Below, piece by piece: positions 22,902-33,756 of a DNA stretch of 64,000 bases. A program made the position numbers and the translations under genes. The notes below the pieces were generated by a model that saw only the letters and a program-made list of their open reading frames with translations, was not told the DNA's origin and ran no database searches. The first letter of the stretch is position 1; each line of letters starts with the position of its first letter. Where the stretch lies: assembly GCA_016871175.1 (NCBI GenBank), contig VFZL01000001.1:1-64000 (forward strand). The letters are read 5' to 3'. This DNA comes from Acidimicrobiia bacterium. GTDB lineage: Bacteria > Acidobacteriota > Vicinamibacteria > Vicinamibacterales > CAVVIG01.

Positions 22902-22931
22902 TTGACACTGGCGCGAGCGGTCTGCTATCGT
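22902..22931 (+). promoter_or_regulatory. Sigma70-type promoter of the aro/trp operon
   Basis: TTGACA at 22902-22907, an 18-base spacer and TATCGT at 22926-22931. The -35 box is a perfect consensus. Transcription would start near 22938, a few bases before the leader reading frame. It lies back to back with the S55 peptidase promoter, with 18 bases between the two -35 boxes. Confidence 0.7.
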
Positions 22932-22944
22932 GCGAACTTCCGTG

Positions 22945-23058
22945 GTGCATCGACTGCCTCTTGCCCGTTCCGAGCGTCCCGTCCGCGCGGCCGTTGTGTC
23001 TGCGTGGCGGTGGTATTGGAGCCTGGGAGAAGAGGCTGTTGCACGGGCCCGAGCCTGA
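22945..23058 (+). CDS. Putative trp-type leader peptide (contains WRWYW)
   Basis: A 37-codon reading frame, GTG to TGA, between the operon promoter and the terminator hairpin. Codons at 23005, 23011 and 23017 are TGG (Trp) and 23014 is TAT (Tyr), giving the cluster W-R-W-Y-W. Three Trp in five codons is far above chance, and the frame sits where a trp leader should be. GTG at 22945 or 22942 is the likeliest start, only a few bases after the predicted transcription start; a GTG at 22996 would make a 20-residue peptide with the same Trp cluster. No Shine-Dalgarno is seen, so translation would be leaderless or near-leaderless. The stop codon lies past the first pairing segment, as ribosome-mediated attenuation needs. 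Confidence 0.65.
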   Translation: MHRLPLARSERPVRAAVVSAWRWYWSLGEEAVARARA

Positions 23059-23119
23059 CCACCGCGCGACCGATTCCGAAGAGCCTCTTCAGCCCCCCGG
23101 TTGAAGAGGCTTTTTTTTT
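23029..23119 (+). terminator. Trp-type attenuator: antiterminator and T9 terminator
   Basis: GAAGAGGCT at 23029-23037 and TGAAGAGGCT at 23102-23111 are near-identical, and both are complementary to AGCCTCTTCA at 23082-23091. The 23082/23102 pairing makes a 10-base-pair stem with a 10-base loop followed by nine T (23111-23119): a textbook intrinsic terminator. The 23029/23082 pairing (9 pairs) excludes it and would be the antiterminator. AGCCT at 23020-23024 can pair with AGGCT at 23033-23037 to protect the upstream arm. The Trp codons lie 10-24 bases upstream of 23029, so a ribosome stalled there leaves the antiterminator free, while one at the stop codon 23056 covers it. Confidence 0.75.
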
Positions 23120-23122
23120 GCA

Positions 23123-23155
23123 CCGCTCTGCGACGCACCCGTTCACGCAGAGCGG
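23123..23155 (+). promoter_or_regulatory. Perfect 10-bp hairpin after the attenuator
   Basis: CCGCTCTGCG (23123-23132) and CGCAGAGCGG (23146-23155) form a perfect stem with a 13-base loop, 3 bases after the T tract. No T tract follows it. It could protect the 5' end of the readthrough transcript or be a second control point. Role unknown. Confidence 0.4.
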
Positions 23156-23252
23156 CGGCGCGCAGAGCGCGCCCGCGAGAAGCGGGAGCGGGGCGCCGGG
23201 TTCCCGCTGAGCAACCGAGCCGGGGCCTGGGACGGGCCCCATGGAAGGAGTG

Positions 23253-24752
23253 ATGCCGCAGCGACTCTGCGTCGTGGCCATGGCCGCGACACTCGACGAC
23301 CTCCGCCGGCAGCGGGACGCCGCTTTCGACGCCGACCTTGTCGAGCTGCGGCTGGACGCGCTCCCCCCCGCCGAGCTGGACGTGGCGGGCGCCCTTCAGG
23401 GACGGCGGACCCCGGTCATCGTGACGTGTCGCGCCCAGTGGGAGGGGGGGCACTTCGCGGGCTCCGAGGAGGAGCGGCGCCAGGTGCTGGCGCAGGCGCT
23501 CGATCGGGGCGCGGAGTACGTCGACGTCGAATGGAAAGCCGGCTTCCACGATCTGGTGCGGGGACCGCAGCGGGAGCGGATCGTCCTGTCACACCACGCG
23601 TTCGACGGGGTGCCCGATGACTTCGCGCAACGCGCCCGTGAGATGCGCGCGCACGGAGCCGGCGTCGTCAAGCTGGCGGCGATGACGCACCGGCTGAGCG
23701 ACTCGGCGACACTCTTACAGGTGGCGCGCGCGGTGCAGGGGCTGGACGAAACCGGGCCCGGCCGCGCGATTATCATCGCGATGGGTCAGTGTGGAGAGGT
23801 GTCGCGCGTGTGTCCGTCGCGATTCGGGTCGGTCTGGTCGTACGCCGGTTCTGTGGCCGGCATCGGCCAACTGGACCCCCGAATGCTGCTCGATCGGTAC
23901 CGCTTCCGCGCCCTCACGACGGACACACGGCTCTACGGGATCGTTGGGCGACCGGTCGGGCATTCCGTCTCGCCCGCGATGCACAATGCCGCCTTCGGCG
24001 CGACAGGCGTCGACGGCGTGTACCTCTCGCTGCCCGCTGTCGACGTCGAAGACTTCGTGGCGTTTGCCCACGCGTTCTCGCTGTCGGGCGCGAGCGTCAC
24101 CATCCCGTACAAGGTGGCCCTCAAAGACCGTGTCGACTGCGTTGATCCGCTGGCCCGCGACGTCGGGGCGATCAACACCTTACGGATGGATGGTGACCGC
24201 TGGCAGGGAACCAACACCGACGTCGCGGGGTTTCTGCGTCCGCTCACTGATCGTGGTACGGTGCTGCGTGACATGCGGGTGGCGATCGTCGGGGCCGGTG
24301 GATCCGCTCGTGCCGTTGTCGCCGCCCTGCGATCAGTCGGTGCGCGTGTCACCGTTCACGCGCGTCGACCGCAGAACGCCTGTGCGCTGGCACAGGCGTG
24401 TGGTGACGTCGTGGCTGGCGCCTGGCCGGTTCCAGAGGGCTCTTGGGATCTCCTCGTCAATTGCACGCCGGTCGGGATGCACCCCGATACCGGCGCCTCC
24501 CCGGTGGCCGCCACAGGATTGGCGGGCCTTGCGCGTCGCACGGTCTACGACCTCGTGTACAACCCGCTCGAGACGCAGTTGCTGAAGGACGCCCGACGCG
24601 CGGGGCTTGCGACCATCGGCGGGCTCGACATGTTGGTGGAGCAGGCGCGCGATCAGTTCCTTCTGTGGACCGGCATCCGGCCGGAAGCAGCGGTGATGCG
24701 CGAGGCCGCGCTGGCGCGGCTCGCCGAGTTCGGAGCAACCCGAGAATCATGA
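23253..24752 (+). CDS. aroDE: Bifunctional 3-dehydroquinate dehydratase / shikimate dehydrogenase
   Basis: A 499-residue fusion that performs two successive shikimate-pathway steps: dehydration of 3-dehydroquinate, then NADPH reduction of dehydroshikimate. The type I dehydratase half (1-about 222) has its catalytic pair in LSHHAF (His, about 113) and VVKLAAM (Schiff-base Lys, about 139). The dehydrogenase half has GHSVSPAMHN (about 236-245), NTDVAGF and the nucleotide motif GAGGSARAV. Fused AroDE is typical of plants and is scattered among bacteria. ATG 23253 or 23241 are both possible starts; a GGAAGGAG lies between them. It is the first structural gene behind the attenuator and overlaps trpE by ATGA. 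Confidence 0.92.
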   Translation: MPQRLCVVAMAATLDDLRRQRDAAFDADLVELRLDALPPAELDVAGALQGRRTPVIVTCRAQWEGGHFAGSEEERRQVLAQALDRGAEYVDVEWKAGFHDLVRGPQRERIVLSHHAFDGVPDDFAQRAREMRAHGAGVVKLAAMTHRLSDSATLLQVARAVQGLDETGPGRAIIIAMGQCGEVSRVCPSRFGSVWSYAGSVAGIGQLDPRMLLDRYRFRALTTDTRLYGIVGRPVGHSVSPAMHNAAFGATGVDGVYLSLPAVDVEDFVAFAHAFSLSGASVTIPYKVALKDRVDCVDPLARDVGAINTLRMDGDRWQGTNTDVAGFLRPLTDRGTVLRDMRVAIVGAGGSARAVVAALRSVGARVTVHARRPQNACALAQACGDVVAGAWPVPEGSWDLLVNCTPVGMHPDTGASPVAATGLAGLARRTVYDLVYNPLETQLLKDARRAGLATIGGLDMLVEQARDQFLLWTGIRPEAAVMREAALARLAEFGATRES

Positions 24753-26224
24753 AGATCACGACGTTCGAAGAGTTCACCGAGCTGGCGCGACGCGCCACCT
24801 TCGTGCCGGTCTGCAAGGAGATCGTGGCGGACCTGCTGACGCCGGTGTCCGCCTTCCTGAAGATCGCCGAGGACGCCGACTACGCGTTCCTCCTCGAGAG
24901 CGTCGAGGGTGGCGAACACGTGGGGCGCTACTCGTTCCTCGGGAAGGACCCGTTCCTCATCCTGCGTGCGCGCGACGGAAAGACGACCATCGATCGCGCA
25001 GGGGTCGTGAGCGAGAGCACGCGCCCGTTCATCGAGACGCTGCGATCGCTCATGGCGGATTTTCGCTCGCCCTTTGTCCCGGGCCTGCCCCGATTCACCG
25101 GTGGAGCCGTCGGGTATTTTAGCTACGGAGCGGCCTCGTGGTTCGAGCCGGTGCTGGGTGACCTCGGGGCCGGCCCGGACGGCGCCGATCAAGCTGGCTG
25201 GATGCTCTTCGACACCGTGCTTGCCTTCGACCACGTGCAGCGTCGGATCCTCATCATCGCGAACGCGCGCATCACCGGAGACGATGACCTCGAGTCGCTG
25301 TATCAGTTCGCGTGCGCGAAGATTCAGTTCCTCGAGCGTGAGCTCGAGCGGAACCTGTCGATCACGCGTCGCGAGAGCCCACGGCCGCTGACGATGACGT
25401 CGAACGTCACCCGTGAACAGTACGAAGCGGCGGTTCGGGCGGGGAAAGAACACATCGCAGCGGGCGACATCTATCAGGTGGTCTTGTCGCAGCGGTTCGA
25501 GGCGGCCGTCGACGCCGATCCATTCACGGTCTACCGAGCGCTGCGGCACGTCAATCCGTCGCCGTACATGTACTTCATCCGCATGGGCGGGGTGTCGGTG
25601 GTCGGTTCCTCGCCAGAGATGCTGGTCCGCGTCGAAGGCACGCGCGTGGAAACCCATCCGATCGCCGGCACGCGCCCGCGTGGAAGGACTGAGGCGGACG
25701 ATCAGCGGCTCGGTGAGGAGCTCAAGCGCAATGAGAAGGAACGCGCGGAGCACGTGATGCTCGTCGATCTTGGCCGTAACGACGTGGGTCGCGTGTGCCA
25801 GTACGGGTCGGTACGGGTGCCGCAGTTCATGGCGCTCGAACGCTTCTCGCACGTCATGCATCTGACGTCGGTCGTCGAGGGCACGCTCGCGCCCGACCGC
25901 GACCGGCTCGACGCGCTCGTGTCGTGTTTTCCCGCGGGCACCGTGTCCGGGGCGCCGAAGGTGCGCGCGATGCAGATCATCCGCGAGCTCGAGCCGAGCG
26001 GCCGCGGCCTGTATGCGGGCGCCGTCGGCTACGTGGACTTCGCGGGCAACCTCGACTGCTGCATCGCGATCCGCACGATCATCATGTTCGGCGGGACGGC
26101 CTACGTGCAGGCCGGCGCCGGCATCGTGATGGACTCGAATCCCACAGCGGAATACGAAGAGACGCGCGACAAGGCCCGCGCGCTCATCCGAGCCCTCGAG
26201 CTCGCGCAGGCGGGGCTGAACTGA
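24749..26224 (+). CDS. trpE: Anthranilate synthase component I
   Basis: A 491-residue chorismate-using enzyme that, with TrpG, makes anthranilate. The N-terminal FLLESVEGG segment (about 46-54) is the LLES motif where tryptophan binds for feedback inhibition, so allosteric control is probably kept in addition to attenuation. The catalytic C-terminal half has SSPEML, HPIAGTRPRG, LVDLGRNDVGRV and PAGTVSGAPKVRAM, all hallmarks of TrpE. It is coupled to aroDE by an ATGA overlap. PabB is excluded as first choice by the LLES motif and the trp neighbours. Confidence 0.95.
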   Translation: MKITTFEEFTELARRATFVPVCKEIVADLLTPVSAFLKIAEDADYAFLLESVEGGEHVGRYSFLGKDPFLILRARDGKTTIDRAGVVSESTRPFIETLRSLMADFRSPFVPGLPRFTGGAVGYFSYGAASWFEPVLGDLGAGPDGADQAGWMLFDTVLAFDHVQRRILIIANARITGDDDLESLYQFACAKIQFLERELERNLSITRRESPRPLTMTSNVTREQYEAAVRAGKEHIAAGDIYQVVLSQRFEAAVDADPFTVYRALRHVNPSPYMYFIRMGGVSVVGSSPEMLVRVEGTRVETHPIAGTRPRGRTEADDQRLGEELKRNEKERAEHVMLVDLGRNDVGRVCQYGSVRVPQFMALERFSHVMHLTSVVEGTLAPDRDRLDALVSCFPAGTVSGAPKVRAMQIIRELEPSGRGLYAGAVGYVDFAGNLDCCIAIRTIIMFGGTAYVQAGAGIVMDSNPTAEYEETRDKARALIRALELAQAGLN

Positions 26225-26284: not shown

Positions 26285-26860
<576 letters not shown>

Positions 26861-26878: not shown

Positions 26879-27916
26879 ATGTTCTCGACCTTGATGGAGA
26901 AGCTGACGCGCCGCGAAGATCTGACGAGTGATGAAGCTGCCAGCTTCATGGCCGAGGTCATGGAGGGCCGTGCACAGGATGCGCAGATCGCGGGATTCCT
27001 CGTCGGTCTGGTCATGAAGGGCGAGCGCCCGGTGGAACTCGTCGGTCTGGCGCGGACGATGCGCGCACATGCGGTGCAGCTGTCCACCCCTCCGAGCCGC
27101 GTGTTCGATACCTGCGGGACCGGCGGCGACCGGTCCGGGACGTTCAACATCTCGTCGTGTGTCGCGATCGTGGTGGCGTCGTGCGGCTTGCCCGTCGCCA
27201 AGCACGGCAACCGGTCCGTGTCCAGTCAGTCCGGCAGCGCCGATGTGTTCGAGGCGCTGGGTGTGCGTGTCTCGGCGTCGCCGGCCGTCGTCGAACGCTG
27301 CCTCGCCGATGCGGGACTCGGCTTCTTCTTTGCGCCGACGTTTCACCCGTCGATGCGGTACGCCGCGGGTGCTCGGAAGGCACTGGGCGTGCGCACCGCA
27401 TTCAACCTGCTCGGACCGCTGACGAACCCCGCTGGTGCGAGCCGACAGCTCGTGGGCGTGCCGCGTCCTGAGTTCACCGAGTTGCTGGCCCGTGCCCTGA
27501 TGTTGCTCGGGTCGGAACGCGCGTGGGTCGTGCACGGCGCGGACGGCATCGATGAAATCTCGACGACCGGGTACACCAAGGTCTCGGAGTGTCGAGACGG
27601 CGCCGTGAACACCTTCTACCTGCACCCATCCGACGTCGGCCTGTCGAAAGCCGCCCCCGACGCCCTGCGCGGGGGCTCCGCGGTCGAGAACGCGCGCATC
27701 GTCGAAACGGTGCTCGCCGGCACGCGCGGGCCAGCGCGCGACATCGTGCTGTTCAATGCTGGCTCGGCGCTGTTCATTGCCGGTGCGTCCCCCTCGATCG
27801 ACGACGGCATGACGCGCGCCGCGGAGGCCATCGACCGCGGTGACGCGCGCCGGACACTCGATCGAGTGGTGTCGCTGTCGACAGCTGGGGAGCTGGCGAC
27901 CGGAGCGGGCGCATGA
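26879..27916 (+). CDS. trpD: Anthranilate phosphoribosyltransferase
   Basis: A 345-residue enzyme that couples anthranilate to PRPP. The conserved DTCGTGGDRSGTFNISS segment (about 78-94) holds the PRPP-binding glycine loop, and KHGNRSVSSQSGSADVFEALG follows; the FFFAPTFHPSM and RTAFNLLGPLTNPA segments complete the family pattern. Its 3' end overlaps trpC by ATGA. Length is standard. Confidence 0.95.
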   Translation: MFSTLMEKLTRREDLTSDEAASFMAEVMEGRAQDAQIAGFLVGLVMKGERPVELVGLARTMRAHAVQLSTPPSRVFDTCGTGGDRSGTFNISSCVAIVVASCGLPVAKHGNRSVSSQSGSADVFEALGVRVSASPAVVERCLADAGLGFFFAPTFHPSMRYAAGARKALGVRTAFNLLGPLTNPAGASRQLVGVPRPEFTELLARALMLLGSERAWVVHGADGIDEISTTGYTKVSECRDGAVNTFYLHPSDVGLSKAAPDALRGGSAVENARIVETVLAGTRGPARDIVLFNAGSALFIAGASPSIDDGMTRAAEAIDRGDARRTLDRVVSLSTAGELATGAGA

Positions 27917-28725
27917 GTGGGCAGGCGACGGCGGATCTTCTCGCGACGATCGTGGCGGCCACGCGCCGGAGCGTCGAGACGCGCGCGCACGAGGAGTCGA
28001 TCGAGGCCCTGGCCGATCGCGCCAGCCGCCGAACGACAAGGCCGGGCTGTTTTCGGGACGCGTTCGGCCACGCCGCACGCTTGAGCGTCATCGCCGAATG
28101 TAAGCGTCGGTCCCCGTCTAAGGGGGTGTTGCGCGCGGACTACGATCCGGTCGCGATCGCGGTGGCGTACGAGCGCGCGGGCGCATCGGCGATCTCCGTC
28201 CTGACGGAGCCGTCGTTCTTCGACGGATCGCTGGCTCATCTGGAAGCCGTGCGCGCCGCGGTGTCGCTGCCCCTACTCCGAAAGGACTTCATCATCTCCG
28301 AGTATCAGTTGCTCGAGGCGCGTGCCTCGGGTGCGGATGCCGTCCTGCTCATCGTGTCTGCGCTGCCGCCCGCCGAGCTCCGACACCTGCACCTCCGTGC
28401 CCTGGCGCTCGGTCTGGATGTGCTCGTCGAGGTGCACAGCGAGGACGAGCTACGCATGGCTTTGGATGCGGGTGCCACGCTCGTCGGCGTCAACAATCGC
28501 AACCTGCGGACGCTGGCCGTCGACGTCACGCTGTCCGAACGGGTCATCGCCCAGGTGCCTCGCGAGGTCGTGGCTGTCAGCGAGAGCGGTCTTCGGTCGG
28601 GCGGAGATCTCATCCGATTACGTGCGTTCGGCTACTCAGCGTTTCTCATCGGCGAGCGGTTCATGACCGAACGGGATCCCGGCCAGGCGCTCTCTCGTCT
28701 CTTGGCGGAGGCGTCACCCGCGTGA
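27913..28725 (+). CDS. trpC: Indole-3-glycerol phosphate synthase
   Basis: A 270-residue TIM-barrel enzyme that closes the indole ring. Catalytic segments AECKRRSPSKG (Lys, about 59-69), LLRKDFIISEYQ, VGVNNRNLRTL and VAVSESGLRSG are all in place. It is not fused to trpF, which follows as a separate gene with a GTGA overlap. Length is normal. Confidence 0.95.
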   Translation: MSGQATADLLATIVAATRRSVETRAHEESIEALADRASRRTTRPGCFRDAFGHAARLSVIAECKRRSPSKGVLRADYDPVAIAVAYERAGASAISVLTEPSFFDGSLAHLEAVRAAVSLPLLRKDFIISEYQLLEARASGADAVLLIVSALPPAELRHLHLRALALGLDVLVEVHSEDELRMALDAGATLVGVNNRNLRTLAVDVTLSERVIAQVPREVVAVSESGLRSGGDLIRLRAFGYSAFLIGERFMTERDPGQALSRLLAEASPA

Positions 28726-29366
28726 CTCAGGTGCTGGTCAAGATCTGCGGCATCACGCGCGAGGTGGACGCTCGGGCAGCGGTGGCGTGTGGCGCGTCGG
28801 CGATCGGGTTCATCTTCTGGCCGAAGAGCCCACGATTCATCGACCCGTACCGCGCGCGGCGCGTCGCGCGTGTGCTGCCGGCGTTCGTGACTCCCGTCGG
28901 CGTGTTCGTCAATCAGCCGGTCGAGTACGTGAATGCCGTGTCCAGTCTCGTGGGTCTCGGCGCGGTGCAGCTGCACGGGGACGAGACGCCTGCGTACGCG
29001 GAAGGCATTCGGCGGCCGATCATCCGCGCGGTGGGCGCCGATGCGCTCGACGAGGAGCGCCGGTGGTCGGATGAAGTCGTACTGCTCGTCGACGCCCATG
29101 ATCCCGTGCAACGCGGTGGAACCGGGCGCACGTCGGATTGGAGCGTGGCGGCCGCGCTCTCCGCGCGGCGGCGAGTCGTGCTGTCGGGTGGGTTGACCCC
29201 GGACAACGTCACCGCTGGGCTCGCCGCCGTCCGGCCCTTTGGCGTGGACGTGTCGTCCGGAGTCGAGACGGCACCCGGGATCAAGGACGCAGCGCGATTG
29301 CAGGCGTTCTTTGCGCAGGTCCGCGCGGCGTCAGCCGAGGACAGACGGTCAGAGGTGTCACGGTGA
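28722..29366 (+). CDS. trpF: Phosphoribosylanthranilate isomerase
   Basis: A 214-residue TIM-barrel enzyme that isomerises phosphoribosylanthranilate. It begins [12 protein letters not shown] with the catalytic Cys, contains QLHGDE, and has the catalytic Asp in LLVDAHD followed by [11 protein letters not shown] and [11 protein letters not shown] start within the trpC stop (GTGA), and its own stop overlaps the trpB GTG. Confidence 0.94.
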
Positions 29367-30619
29367 CGAATGGTACGAGTGGGGCGATCAGGACCGGGCG
29401 ACGCGATCCGGACGCCCGCGGCTACTTCGGCGAGTTCGGCGGCCGATACGTGCCCGAGACGCTGGTGGAGCCGATTGAAGCGCTCGAGCGGGCGTATGTG
29501 GCCGCGCGAGACGATGAGCGCTTCCAGGCGGAGCTGCAGCGGTTGCTGAGTCAGTACGTCGGTCGTCCGACACCCGTGTACGAGGCGCGACGGCTCACCT
29601 CGATGCTCGGGGGCGCCCGGATCTTCTTGAAGCGCGAGGACCTCACTCATACCGGCGCGCACAAGATCAACAACGCGCTCGGCCAGGCGCTGCTGGCGGT
29701 GCGCATGGGGAAGCGGCGGATCGTGGCCGAGACAGGGGCCGGACAGCATGGCGTCGCGACGGCGACCGCGTGCGCGCTGCTCGGTCTCACATGCCATGTC
29801 TATATGGGCGCGGAGGACATGGATCGGCAAGCGCTCAACGTGTTCCGGATGCGGCTGCTCGGCGCGGAGGTCATCCGCGTGGACGCCGGGAGCCGCACGC
29901 TCAAGGACGCGATCAACGAGGCGATGCGTGACTGGGTCACGCATGTGCACGACACGTACTACCTATTGGGTTCAGCGCTCGGCCCGCATCCCTATCCCCT
30001 CATGGTGCGCGAATTCCAGTCGGTCATCGGACGCGAGGCCCGTCAGCAGATCGCGCAGCTTGCCGGTCGGCTTCCAGACGCCGTCGTCGCGTGCGTCGGT
30101 GGCGGCAGCAACGCCATTGGTATCTTCGATGCATTCATCGACGACCCGTCCGTGCGACTCGTGGGTGTCGAAGCCGGTGGCGAGCGCATCACGAAAGGCC
30201 GACACGCCGCGCGATTCGCGGGTGGCAGCACCGGGATTCTTCAAGGCACGCGCACGTTCGTCCTCCAGGACGAGGACGGCAACATCGAGGTGACGCACTC
30301 GGTCTCTGCGGGACTCGACTATGCCGCCGTCGGACCGGAGCATGCGTGGCTCCGCGCGATCGGCCGTGCCGAATACGCGTACGCCACGGATGCTGAGGCC
30401 GTGGACGCGTTTCAAGCACTGGCCCGCCTGGAAGGCATCCTGCCCGCGCTGGAGTCCGCGCACGCAATCGCGTACCTCACGACGTTCGCGCGGGAGCTCG
30501 GACCAGACGCCATCGTCCTGGTGAATCTGTCGGGTCGCGGCGACAAAGACGTCCACACGATGGCGAAGCAGCTGGCCGCTCAAGGCGTGACTCTTGGGGC
30601 CGGACTCGGGGTGCCCTGA
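29363..30619 (+). CDS. trpB: Tryptophan synthase beta chain
   Basis: A 418-residue PLP enzyme that joins indole and serine. The PLP Lys lies in [13 protein letters not shown], followed by [14 protein letters not shown], the phosphate-binding GGGSNAIG loop and NLSGRGDKD near the end. This is a TrpB1-type protein expected to pair with TrpA. I chose the GTG at 29363, which overlaps the trpF stop; a longer upstream frame runs through trpF in another frame and is not needed. Confidence 0.95.
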
Positions 30620-31428
30620 TGTCCCGTCTTGTAGAAACCTTCGCCCGGCTCCACCGCGACGCTCAGCCCGGCCTCGTCACCTACACAACCGCCGGTGATC
30701 CGGATTTGCCGCGATCCGGGCAGATCCTCAGAGCGCTCGACCGTGCCGGTGCCGACGTGCTCGAGGTGGGCGTGCCCTGGACGGATCCCCTGGCCGACGG
30801 ACCGGTTATCCAGCGCGCGACCGAGCGTGCGCTGGCGGCGGGAGGCAGCCTTCGGCACACGCTCGCGCTGGTCCGGTCGATTCGCGCCGATGTGCGCGCA
30901 CCGATCGTGATCTTCAGTTATGTCAATCCCATCGCCCGCATGGGAGAAGCGGCCTTCGCCCGGGCGGCCGGCGAGGCCGGTGTCGACGGCGTCCTGGTGC
31001 TCGACTTGCTGGTCGAGGAAGCCGCATCGTTCCGGGAGATGCTCGCGGACGTGGGTGTCGACACGATCTTCCTGCTGAGTCCGACGACCACGGACGCGCG
31101 CATGGCGCGTGCGGGTCGGTTGGGCAGCGGGTTTCTGTACTGCATCTCGCGGCTGGGCGTGACAGGCGCGCGCGACGACGTGTCGGCTGATGCGAGCGCC
31201 TTGGTGCGGCGCATTCGGGCGCACACGGATTTGCCCATCGCTCTCGGCTTTGGCCTCTCCAGGCCCGAGCAGGTGGCCGAGGTGGGCACGTTCGCCGACG
31301 CCGCGGTCGTGGGAAGCGCGTTGGTGTCCCGCATAGCCGAGGCCAGCTCGTCGCCTCGCCTCGAAGACGACGTTGCCGCGTACGTGCGCGGCTTGAAGCG
31401 CGCCTGCGAGACCGCGCGCGTGAGATGA
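30619..31428 (+). CDS. trpA: Tryptophan synthase alpha chain
   Basis: A 269-residue TIM barrel that cleaves indole-3-glycerol phosphate to indole. The catalytic Glu and Asp are in EVGVPWTDPLADGPVIQ (about 48-64); GFLYCISRLGVTGAR and GFGLSRPEQ follow. The start is coupled to trpB (TGATG) and the stop overlaps the chorismate mutase gene (ATGA). Confidence 0.94.
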   Translation: MSRLVETFARLHRDAQPGLVTYTTAGDPDLPRSGQILRALDRAGADVLEVGVPWTDPLADGPVIQRATERALAAGGSLRHTLALVRSIRADVRAPIVIFSYVNPIARMGEAAFARAAGEAGVDGVLVLDLLVEEAASFREMLADVGVDTIFLLSPTTTDARMARAGRLGSGFLYCISRLGVTGARDDVSADASALVRRIRAHTDLPIALGFGLSRPEQVAEVGTFADAAVVGSALVSRIAEASSSPRLEDDVAAYVRGLKRACETARVR

Positions 31429-31806: not shown

Positions 31807-32853
31807 ATGGTTGTCGTGATGGATGAGCGCGCGACCGAAGCGCAGATCGAGAACGTGGTCGCTCGACTCGTCGAGATGGGAATGGACGTGCACCGATCGA
31901 CCGGTGTCACGCGGACCGTCCTAGGCGTGGTCTGGCAGGGTCGGCCCGATGCAGGCATCATCCAGTTGCTCGACGGCGTGCACGAGGTGCTGCGGATCTC
32001 CGAGCCGTACAAGCTGGCCGGGCGCACCTTCAAGCCGGAGAGCACGGTCGTGAAAGTGGGCGACGTCCGTATCGGTGGCGATGAGGCGATCGTCATCGCG
32101 GGGCCCTGCTCGGCGGAAAACGAGAAGCAAGTGCGGACGACGGCCGCTGCCGTCAGACGTGCCGGAGCGAAGGTCCTGCGAGGGGGCGCGTTCAAGCCGC
32201 GCAGCTCACCGTACAGCTTCCAGGGGCTCGGCGAGCCTGGGCTGCAGCTGCTTCAGGATGCCGCGAAGGCGGAGAACCTGGCGCTCGTCTCGGAGGTGAT
32301 GGAGATCGCGCAAATCCCGCTGATCGAGAAGTACTGCGACATGTTCCAGGTCGGCGCGCGCAACATGCAAAACTTTGGGTTGTTGCGAGAGCTTGGGCAC
32401 GCACGCAAACCCGTGCTGCTCAAGCGCGGCATCTCCGCGACGATCGAGGAGTGGCTGCTGTCGGCGGAGTACATCCTCAGCGGTGGGAACACGGAGGTGG
32501 TGTTGTGCGAGCGTGGCATTCGCACCTTCGAGACGGCCACGCGCAACACGTTCGACGTCTCCGCGATTCCGGTCGTCAAGAAGCTGAGCCACCTGCCGAT
32601 CGTGGGCGACCCGAGTCACGGTGCTGGCCGGAGGGATATGGTCGCGCCGATGGCGCGTGCAGCGGTCGCTGCCGGCGCAGATGGGCTCATCATCGAAGTG
32701 CACTGCGATCCCGACCGCGCCCTGAGTGACGGAGCGCAGTCGATGTTCCCTGCGCAGTTCGACCGGCTGATGGCCGAACTGCGGATCATCGCGCCCGCCA
32801 TCGGCCGGAGCATCTGCGTCGAGCCGACCCCGCGCCGCGGATGGGGCACGTAG
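31807..32853 (+). CDS. aroF: 3-deoxy-7-phosphoheptulonate (DAHP) synthase, type I beta with regulatory N-terminus
   Basis: A 348-residue enzyme that condenses PEP and erythrose 4-phosphate, the first shikimate-pathway step. Residues 1-about 70 form a ferredoxin-like (ACT-like) domain as in the Thermotoga-type enzyme, which in that family mediates inhibition by Tyr or Phe. The catalytic barrel has [44 protein letters not shown] and [13 protein letters not shown]. The gene is 55 bases after chorismate mutase, separated by the repeat, and 6 bases before tyrA. Combining this position with the leader suggests that entry into the whole pathway is controlled by tryptophan-linked attenuation. Confidence 0.93.
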
Positions 32854-32859
32854 CGAGCC

Positions 32860-33756
32860 GTGTCAGCGGCCAGCGGACCATCCATGTCACCGACGGGCGC
32901 CTTCGACCGCATCGGCATCGTGGGTCTGGGGTTGATCGGTGGTTCGATCGCGCTGGCCATCCGGCAGCGCAACCCGACGCTGCGCATCATCGGGATGGAC
33001 AACGCCACGGTGCTGGACGCGGCCGGACGTCTAGGCGCCATCCACGACGGCGTGTCCGATGCCGCCGGGCTCGCCGACGTCGACCTGCTGATCTTGGCTG
33101 CCCCGGTCCGGCAGAACCTGCGCGCGCTCGAGCCGATCGGCACCTGCCTTCGCCGGGATGCGGTGATCACAGACACCGGCAGCACCAAGCGGCAAATCGT
33201 GGACGCCGCGCGCGGATTGCCCGCACACGTGACGTTCATCGGGGGGCATCCGCTTGCAGGGGCCGCCGTCGGCGGGCTCGACCACGCGCGCGACACGCTG
33301 TTTGCCGGCCGCCCGTGGCTGTTGACCCCGGAGGACGAACGGTCCGCGCCCGAGCTCGAACGGCTCATCGCCTTCGTCTCGACGCTTGGCGCGTTGCCAT
33401 CGGTGATGCGTGTGGAGGTCCATGATCGCCTGATGGCGTTCCTGAGCCACCTCCCGCAGCTCACCGTGAGTGCCCTGATGTCGGTCGTTGGCTCGGCCAC
33501 GCGGGAGGAAGGCCTCGCGTTCTCCGGACCGGGGCTCATCGACAGCACGCGGCTGGCGTCAAGTCCCGCCGCGATCTGGCAGGACATCGTGGCCACCAAC
33601 GCCGATCAAGTGGGGCCCGCACTCGACGCGCTCATCGCTTGCCTGCAGGAGTTGCGCGCCGACCTCGGACGCGGCGATCGCTTGGATGCCGTGTTCGATG
33701 CCGCGAACCGCTGGCGACGGGCGTTGCCCAAGTTCGATGTGACGCGCCAAGTATAA
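32860..33756 (+). CDS. tyrA: Prephenate (or arogenate) dehydrogenase
   Basis: A 298-residue NAD(P)-dependent enzyme for tyrosine synthesis. The Rossmann motif IGIVGLGLIGGS (about 20-31), TDTGSTK, GGHPLAG and the catalytic-helix segment FLSHLPQL are present. There is no fused chorismate mutase or ACT domain. GTG start 6 bases after aroF. The last bases, including the stop codon, contain the -10-like box of the following gene. Confidence 0.92.
   Translation: MSAASGPSMSPTGAFDRIGIVGLGLIGGSIALAIRQRNPTLRIIGMDNATVLDAAGRLGAIHDGVSDAAGLADVDLLILAAPVRQNLRALEPIGTCLRRDAVITDTGSTKRQIVDAARGLPAHVTFIGGHPLAGAAVGGLDHARDTLFAGRPWLLTPEDERSAPELERLIAFVSTLGALPSVMRVEVHDRLMAFLSHLPQLTVSALMSVVGSATREEGLAFSGPGLIDSTRLASSPAAIWQDIVATNADQVGPALDALIACLQELRADLGRGDRLDAVFDAANRWRRALPKFDVTRQV

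Follow-up and report, generated by a model that had tools for sequence, protein, structure and literature searches.

The window analysed here, a 64,000-nt stretch of DNA, carries on its plus strand a string of ten aromatic genes beginning with aroDE (23241..24752), a fusion of type I dehydroquinase and shikimate dehydrogenase. This is followed by trpE (24731..26224, start approximate; TIGR00564), trpG (26285..26860; TIGR00566), trpD (26879..27916; TIGR01245), trpC (27913..28725), trpF (28722..29366), an open frame for trpB (29138..30619) in which the TrpB model (TIGR00263) starts only at frame residue 95, and trpA (30619..31428; TIGR00262). The string ends with an aroF-type DAHP synthase gene (31807..32853) and tyrA, encoding prephenate dehydrogenase (32860..33756). 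The genes were named from NCBIfam and Pfam models; for aroDE and tyrA several of the best models fall below their curated cut-offs, while the Pfam domains lie above theirs, bar one shikimate dehydrogenase domain. Direct reading places a Shine-Dalgarno-like GGAAGGAG at 23243..23250 of the plus strand, and the likely aroDE start is the ATG at 23253. The gene on the 5' side of the leader region is divergent, and its protein matches peptidase S55 (E 1e-8). That the genome is acidobacterial, as the original prediction supposed, is borne out by the nearest named aroDE matches (best 80 of 301), which include Luteitalea and Vicinamibacterales MAGs.

Upstream of aroDE, on the plus strand, lies a compact leader. 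It begins with a sigma70-type promoter (22902..22931), seen both by direct reading and in a promoter scan, with -35 TTGACA at 22902-22907, an 18-nt spacer and an extended (TG) -10 TATCGT at 22926-22931; the site has 10 of 12 consensus matches, and one such site was found against a shuffle mean of 0.1. A leader peptide frame (22942..23058), read from the sequence and kept in relatives, starts with GTG at 22942 or 22945, spans 38 codons (translation VVHRLPLARSERPVRAAVVSAWRWYWSLGEEAVARARA) and stops with TGA at 23056; judging from the -10 element, the GTG would lie about 4 nt past the transcription start. Within the frame, codons 23005..23019 read Trp-Arg-Trp-Tyr-Trp, with TGG at 23005, 23011 and 23017 and the tyrosine codon TAT at 23014-23016, 15 nt 5' of the first of three arms. 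This first arm (arm 2, 23029..23037) is the 5' arm of a putative antiterminator and codes for Glu-Glu-Ala within the leader frame. Arm 3 (23082..23091) can pair with arm 2, forming the antiterminator, or with arm 4 (23102..23111), forming the terminator. The sequence GAAGAGGCT is present twice, as arm 2 at 23029-23037 and in arm 4 at 23103-23111, and each copy complements AGCCTCTTC at 23082-23090 in arm 3. The terminator stem AGCCTCTTCA/TGAAGAGGCT is followed by the T9 run of the intrinsic terminator at 23111..23119.

The positions originally given for the promoter, the TGG codons, the repeats and the T9 terminator are right to the base on direct reading, and folding, which had been proposed as a check, agrees with them: RNA 22938-23120 folds at -91.5 kcal/mol (z = -5.7; none of 200 shuffles equals it) and its minimum-energy fold includes the terminator stem. 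A simple terminator scan listed no terminators (shuffle mean 0.7), though the stem is directly readable. A strict arm pattern, demanding an exact 8-nt identity of arm 2, arm 4 and the reverse complement of arm 3 plus T5, occurs on the two window strands at the attenuator site alone and is absent from 1.6 Mb (both strands counted) downstream of 81 loci; it picks up 14 of 81 leaders, and is thus specific rather than sensitive.

Between the switch and the gene, and outside the switch itself, a repeat search located a copy of a GC-rich dispersed repeat (23138..23241, plus strand). Matches to this repeat, which is about 100 nt long, number 12 in the window's genome, counting the copy itself and some short ones, and 32 in genome G001; it is present in 13 of 27 family genomes, one copy lying 3' of a tRNA gene (L006). 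Elsewhere in the window, positions 63-143 match an Rfam group II intron and a tRNA lies at 325-395 on the minus strand.

The leader is not peculiar to this genome. AroDE was found in 24 of the 27 genomes of the window's family, and the leader lies upstream of aroDE in 23 of these 24, the window's included; the 24th is truncated by its contig start. A covariance model (R1) built from the 23 aligned family leaders finds, at E<=0.01, matches in 141 of the order's 162 genomes, covering 82 of 86 genera. From these matches 80 regions, mostly one per genus, were fetched, and a second model (R2), built from 79 leaders, matches 144 of the 162 genomes at E<=0.001, the weakest being G156, a match by model score (E 3e-4). 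The 18 genomes that R2 misses were searched with AroDE: a match at E<=1e-20 is absent in 12 and only a contig-edge fragment is present in the other 6, and no assembly of the order was found that has the aroDE 5' end but not the leader. The 98% complete assembly of one genome in the window's own genus (G025) lacks an AroDE match and offers just a distant TrpE-like one, pointing either to a missing contig or to loss of the operon.

A short frame with clustered tryptophan codons, at least two within six codons, is present in 80 of 81 leaders, though the frame was picked for its tryptophan codons, so that enrichment in tryptophan is not independent evidence. The exception, G142 (L215), keeps the three arms but has a single tryptophan codon in the frame read, which possibly reflects decay of the sensor; DAHP synthase is absent within 12 kb downstream of this leader. 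Run against the best 80 of the 301 aroDE relatives that carry names, R2 detects the leader in five acidobacterial contigs (E<=1e-10), belonging to Luteitalea sp. Dino_bin7, one Vicinamibacterales MAG and three other acidobacterial MAGs. The leader peptides in four of these five are identical to those of G026, G011, G003 and G063, and the named set therefore adds names, not new leaders. By these names the order is very probably Vicinamibacterales. The only other R2 matches in these best 80 are minus-strand echoes of four of the five leaders and a weak minus-strand match (E 0.0025) at a Terriglobia locus (L115).

The gene string is equally widespread. In the long loci, defined as those with at least 11.5 kb of downstream sequence (n=57, window counted), tblastn finds aroDE and all seven trp genes (aroDE-trpEGDCFBA) downstream of the leader in 57 of 57, tyrA in 56 and aroF in 52, and all ten genes stand in the same order in 52. 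The leader precedes aroDE in the window and in all of the 80 fetched regions except that of G056, where it precedes trpE. This gene order suggests that aroDE-trpEGDCFBA-aroF-tyrA forms one transcript. Going by synteny, the leader would govern aroDE, DAHP synthase and tyrA as well as the trp genes, in line with the original prediction.

If the arms are functional, substitutions in one should be matched in the others. We examined an alignment (A4) of 79 leaders, which was fitted to the terminator stem and not to the 2:3 pairing, using as controls versions with partner columns displaced by 1-3 and shuffles, which do not keep relatedness. In the terminator (3:4), 97.6% of 1100 cells are paired against 32.8-61.9% in the slid versions, and two-sided changes number 66 cells against 18.5 on shuffling (0 of 500 shuffles as high). 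In the antiterminator (2:3), the corresponding figures are 88.1% of 766 cells against 43.5-56.1%, and 35 cells against 14.3 (again 0 of 500). Counted by pair, the antiterminator shows no excess: five 2:3 pairs have a two-sided change against 4.3 shuffled (231 of 500), and there are 11 pair types against 10.5 (269 of 500). The clearest sign of covariation is simultaneous change of all three arms: at three columns, A-T-A in arms 2-3-4 has become G-C-G in 6, 4 and 12 of 79 rows, and T-A-T has become C-G-C in 3 rows of 79.

These changes bear on one alternative, that the locus holds a plain intrinsic terminator with a chance tryptophan-rich frame and no attenuation. A terminator alone does account for the T run and the 3:4 stem, but it gives no reason for arm 2 to change together with arms 3 and 4, or for a leader common to 82 of 86 genera; moreover, the terminator sits in front of the operon to which it belongs, and the gene upstream of it is divergent. 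We regard this explanation as highly improbable. Because the tryptophan frame is conserved and both mutually exclusive hairpins co-change across the order, the outcome of the alignment of relatives that had been proposed beforehand, the leader is very probably a ribosome-mediated (leader-peptide) trp transcription attenuator. Its parts, with their conservation, co-changes and spacing, and the gene order are established by sequence and comparison; regulation by tryptophan can be inferred with high confidence, and stalling, together with the direction of the response (increased read-through on tryptophan shortage), would follow from the arrangement.

The attenuator would be expected to work as follows. 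RNA polymerase would begin about 4 nt 5' of the GTG with a ribosome trailing it. A shortage of charged tRNA-Trp, and perhaps of charged tRNA-Tyr, would stall this ribosome on W-R-W-Y-W with its leading edge just short of arm 2, leaving arm 2 free to pair with arm 3, and aroDE-trpEGDCFBA-aroF-tyrA would be transcribed. When these codons are read fast, the ribosome would cross arm 2 to the stop, coming to rest on or beside arm 2, arm 3 would pair with arm 4 and transcription would end at T9.

The spacing is in good agreement with such a scheme. The size of a stalled ribosome's footprint would place its leading edge at about the point where arm 2 begins. As the original prediction held for the window, the tryptophan codons lie at a suitable distance, the first base of the last one being 12-18 nt from arm 2 in 62 of 76 leaders. 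We modelled a stall with RNA that is free from a point 13 nt beyond the first base of the final tryptophan codon and ends at arm 3. The 2:3 pairing (at least 6 expected pairs) is then predicted for 72 of 76 leaders, while 3.5% of 228 shuffles give it; G131 shows hardly any 2:3 pairing at the aligned place. For a ribosome waiting at the stop, the fold gives 3:4 in all 76 leaders, a result that is near built in, since arm 2 is then excluded. All folds of the window leader that include arm 4 contain the terminator, and the choice between 2:3 and 3:4 must therefore be made while the RNA is being transcribed, as it is in known attenuators.

In 74 of 76 leaders arm 2 starts no later than the leader stop, so that an unhindered ribosome passes over it. 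The distance from arm 2 start to stop is 15-21 nt in 63 of 76 leaders and 27 nt in the window, where a waiting ribosome would therefore stand between arms 2 and 3; the earlier suggestion that the leader stop masks arm 2 thus applies in weaker form to the window itself. Arm 2 is out of register with the tryptophan frame in 10 of 77 aligned leaders. A 1:2 protector hairpin is absent from the consensus of 17 leaders of family f1, while a CCAG/CTGG hairpin involving the tryptophan codons appears in the consensus of 14 leaders of family f12, and other pairs in 5 leaders of f14. Promoter sites resembling TTGACA-17/18-TATCGT reach a score of 9 or more in 74 of 80 leaders and of 10 or more in 52 of 79, the latter against 0.75% of mononucleotide shuffles. 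We also considered a strictly leaderless leader mRNA; the leader start lies 7-16 nt past the -10 element in 44 of 74 leaders against a null of 26%, which is suggestive only, and the idea was not retained.

A feature unremarked in the original prediction, whose tryptophan codons are otherwise confirmed, is a conserved tyrosine codon within the cluster. This raises the possibility that the same attenuator senses tyrosine as well as tryptophan, with the tyrosine codon as a further regulatory codon that suits an operon containing tyrA and DAHP synthase genes. Of the 77 aligned leaders 67 are in register, and among these tyrosine occupies position -15 from arm 2 in 45, about as conserved as tryptophan at -18 (48), -21 (47) and -24 (44), with the proviso that relatedness inflates every residue count. 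At -15, tryptophan is found in 9 and phenylalanine in 6, and at -12 tryptophan in 22; of 13 tabulated families, 8 include leaders with tyrosine at -15. The distance from the last tyrosine codon to arm 2 has a median and both quartiles of 15 nt (n=67), tighter than for the last tryptophan codon, with quartiles of 12 and 18 nt (n=76). Of 373 non-tryptophan residues near the tryptophan cluster 93 are tyrosine, compared with 24 of 1722 in the rest of the frame (Fisher test, which ignores relatedness), and 73 of 80 leaders have a tyrosine no more than 2 residues from the cluster. In addition, the sole long locus of the 57 without both tyrA and aroF (G113) reads WWWWC, with no tyrosine.

Several observations weigh against tyrosine sensing. 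Tyrosine is absent or more than 2 residues from the cluster in 7 of 80 leaders; position -15 may instead hold Trp, Phe, Gly, Ser, Cys or Asp; the tyrA-less locus is a single case (G113); and loci that lack aroF only (G143, G062 and G063) still have tyrosine in the frame. R1 was trained on tyrosine-bearing leaders, though the 18 genomes missed reveal no overlooked leader. A fixed place for tyrosine could also serve the RNA or the nascent chain, since TAT:TAC is 36:9 at -15 against a background of 818:2691. Phenylalanine, tried as a third sensed amino acid, was rejected: it accounts for 27 of 373 residues close to the cluster and for 89 of 1722 in the rest of the frame (p = 0.13), which is no enrichment, even if the stretch WWWFFYF or WFWFIYF occurs in three f13 leaders. 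On balance we give joint sensing of tryptophan and tyrosine even chances, and hold with moderate confidence that the leader may respond to tyrosine.

A further explanation places the control at translation as well as, or more than, at transcription, arm 4 being in some relatives the Shine-Dalgarno sequence of aroDE, hidden or freed by the alternative hairpins. Among the 74 leaders with an assignable aroDE start, the start lies no more than 20 nt past arm 4 in 38; in 27 of these 38 arm 4 itself has a Shine-Dalgarno match of at least 4 nt, and just 2 of the 38 have such a match between arm 4 and the start. This leaves arm 4 as the sole ribosome-binding candidate found close before aroDE in 27 of the 74 relatives. 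Yet arm 4 matches equally often in far-start leaders (27 of 36), maybe as a result of purine-rich composition, and 24 of these 36 have no 4-nt match from arm 4 to the start, so aroDE may need none. Furthermore, the Shine-Dalgarno core stands far from the start (by 10-14 nt in 16 of 27 cases, and by up to 25 nt), 11 of the 38 near-start leaders have no match in arm 4, and in the window aroDE has its own Shine-Dalgarno sequence 132 nt past arm 4, with the roughly 100-nt dispersed repeat intervening. At loci such as L149, L157 and L195 (in G005, G018 and G028) the T run touches the aroDE ATG and arm 4 is the nearest purine-rich stretch. Control that acts also, or chiefly, at translation therefore seems unlikely to us. 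In some relatives, though not in the window, arm 4 may have a double role as terminator arm and Shine-Dalgarno sequence. The fullest reading, in which an attenuator responsive to both tryptophan and tyrosine acts order-wide on the whole aromatic supraoperon, with a terminator arm that may double as the aroDE ribosome-binding site (27 of 74), we put forward tentatively, as rather less probable than its absence. If it is true, roughly one in three of the relatives studied would have a single hairpin that blocks both transcription and translation.

How does this leader compare with known systems? In Bacillota, trp operons are known to be controlled by T-box, TRAP-type or riboswitch elements, and this precedent is what would favour such another form of tryptophan control here. 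Against it, Rfam 15 (Trp_leader included) gives no match to the leader at gathering level in a search of the whole window, a search of five leader-bearing loci gives none on the leader at E<=1, and what is found instead is a conserved tryptophan-rich frame; we consider this highly improbable. The closer parallel for the attenuator is in Proteobacteria. In E. coli trpL, tryptophan codons in a leader frame precede an exclusive antiterminator/terminator pair before the first trp-operon gene. A study of Sinorhizobium meliloti describes the same arrangement for its trpL, with tryptophan codons in the leader frame and an exclusive antiterminator and terminator before the first trp-operon gene, as here (PMC7298713). 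According to the same study, the S. meliloti trpL start is the first base of its own RNA and so lies at the transcript 5' end itself (PMC7298713), whereas the leader start here would lie close to that end. Compared with these proteobacterial leaders, the leader described here has no Rfam match, an arm 2 that starts before the leader stop, no conserved 1:2 hairpin found among f1 leaders, a tyrosine codon at a preferred place, aroDE as first gene, and DAHP synthase and tyrA within the gene string. Classical trp attenuators of Actinobacteria (Corynebacterium and Streptomyces) share with it double or triple TGG codons, a GC-rich terminator with T run, and a three-way complementary core, which reads gGCC-rGCy-GGCC in Actinobacteria and GAAGAGGC/GCCTCTTC/GAAGAGGC in the window's family (PMC1262725).

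The suggestion that this control may be undescribed in an acidobacterial genome also fits the literature: no trp attenuator in Acidobacteria is named in the titles and abstract openings of the publications listed by the searches, though an earlier mention is possible (Lopatovskaya et al. 2010 survey). A survey from 2010 reports an associated function for almost no predicted attenuator of Acidobacteriota (PMC2965389), and another study reports a spacing peak for leader genes before structural genes in Acidobacteria, in a context other than a trp attenuator (PMC4833913).

Outside the order, R2 has 7 matches among 31 other genomes of the class, and in a phylum sample of 396 genomes it has 64 matches, 22 of them outside the order and all of these at E 1e-7 or weaker. 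Thirteen weak outside-order matches were inspected. Two of these, G427 and G524 (L228 and L229), from another acidobacterial family, are tryptophan leaders, with WWWY or WWWC frames before a trpB-like gene, G427 having aroF as well. One match (G166) proved to be a terminator before aroDE with no tryptophan frame and was set aside, and tblastn found no aro or trp gene beside the ten others, one of which (G362) does have a WWC stretch. TrpE has matches in 26 genomes of the same class, and in 24 of these the region upstream of TrpE was searched for a cluster of three tryptophan codons plus a T run, which was found only in G190 and G192 (L266 and L264), members of another family of the class in which a tryptophan-rich frame and T runs precede trpE. 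These four leaders from other Acidobacteriota have tryptophan-rich frames like those of the order, a likeness judged by frame reading, and arms unlike the order's.

Taken together, the observations amount to strong comparative evidence for leader-peptide attenuation in Acidobacteriota. The leaders form an evolutionary series of well over a hundred members, along which the peptide frame changes together with the three RNA arms, and they yield the testable idea that a single leader peptide may balance two end products of a branched pathway.
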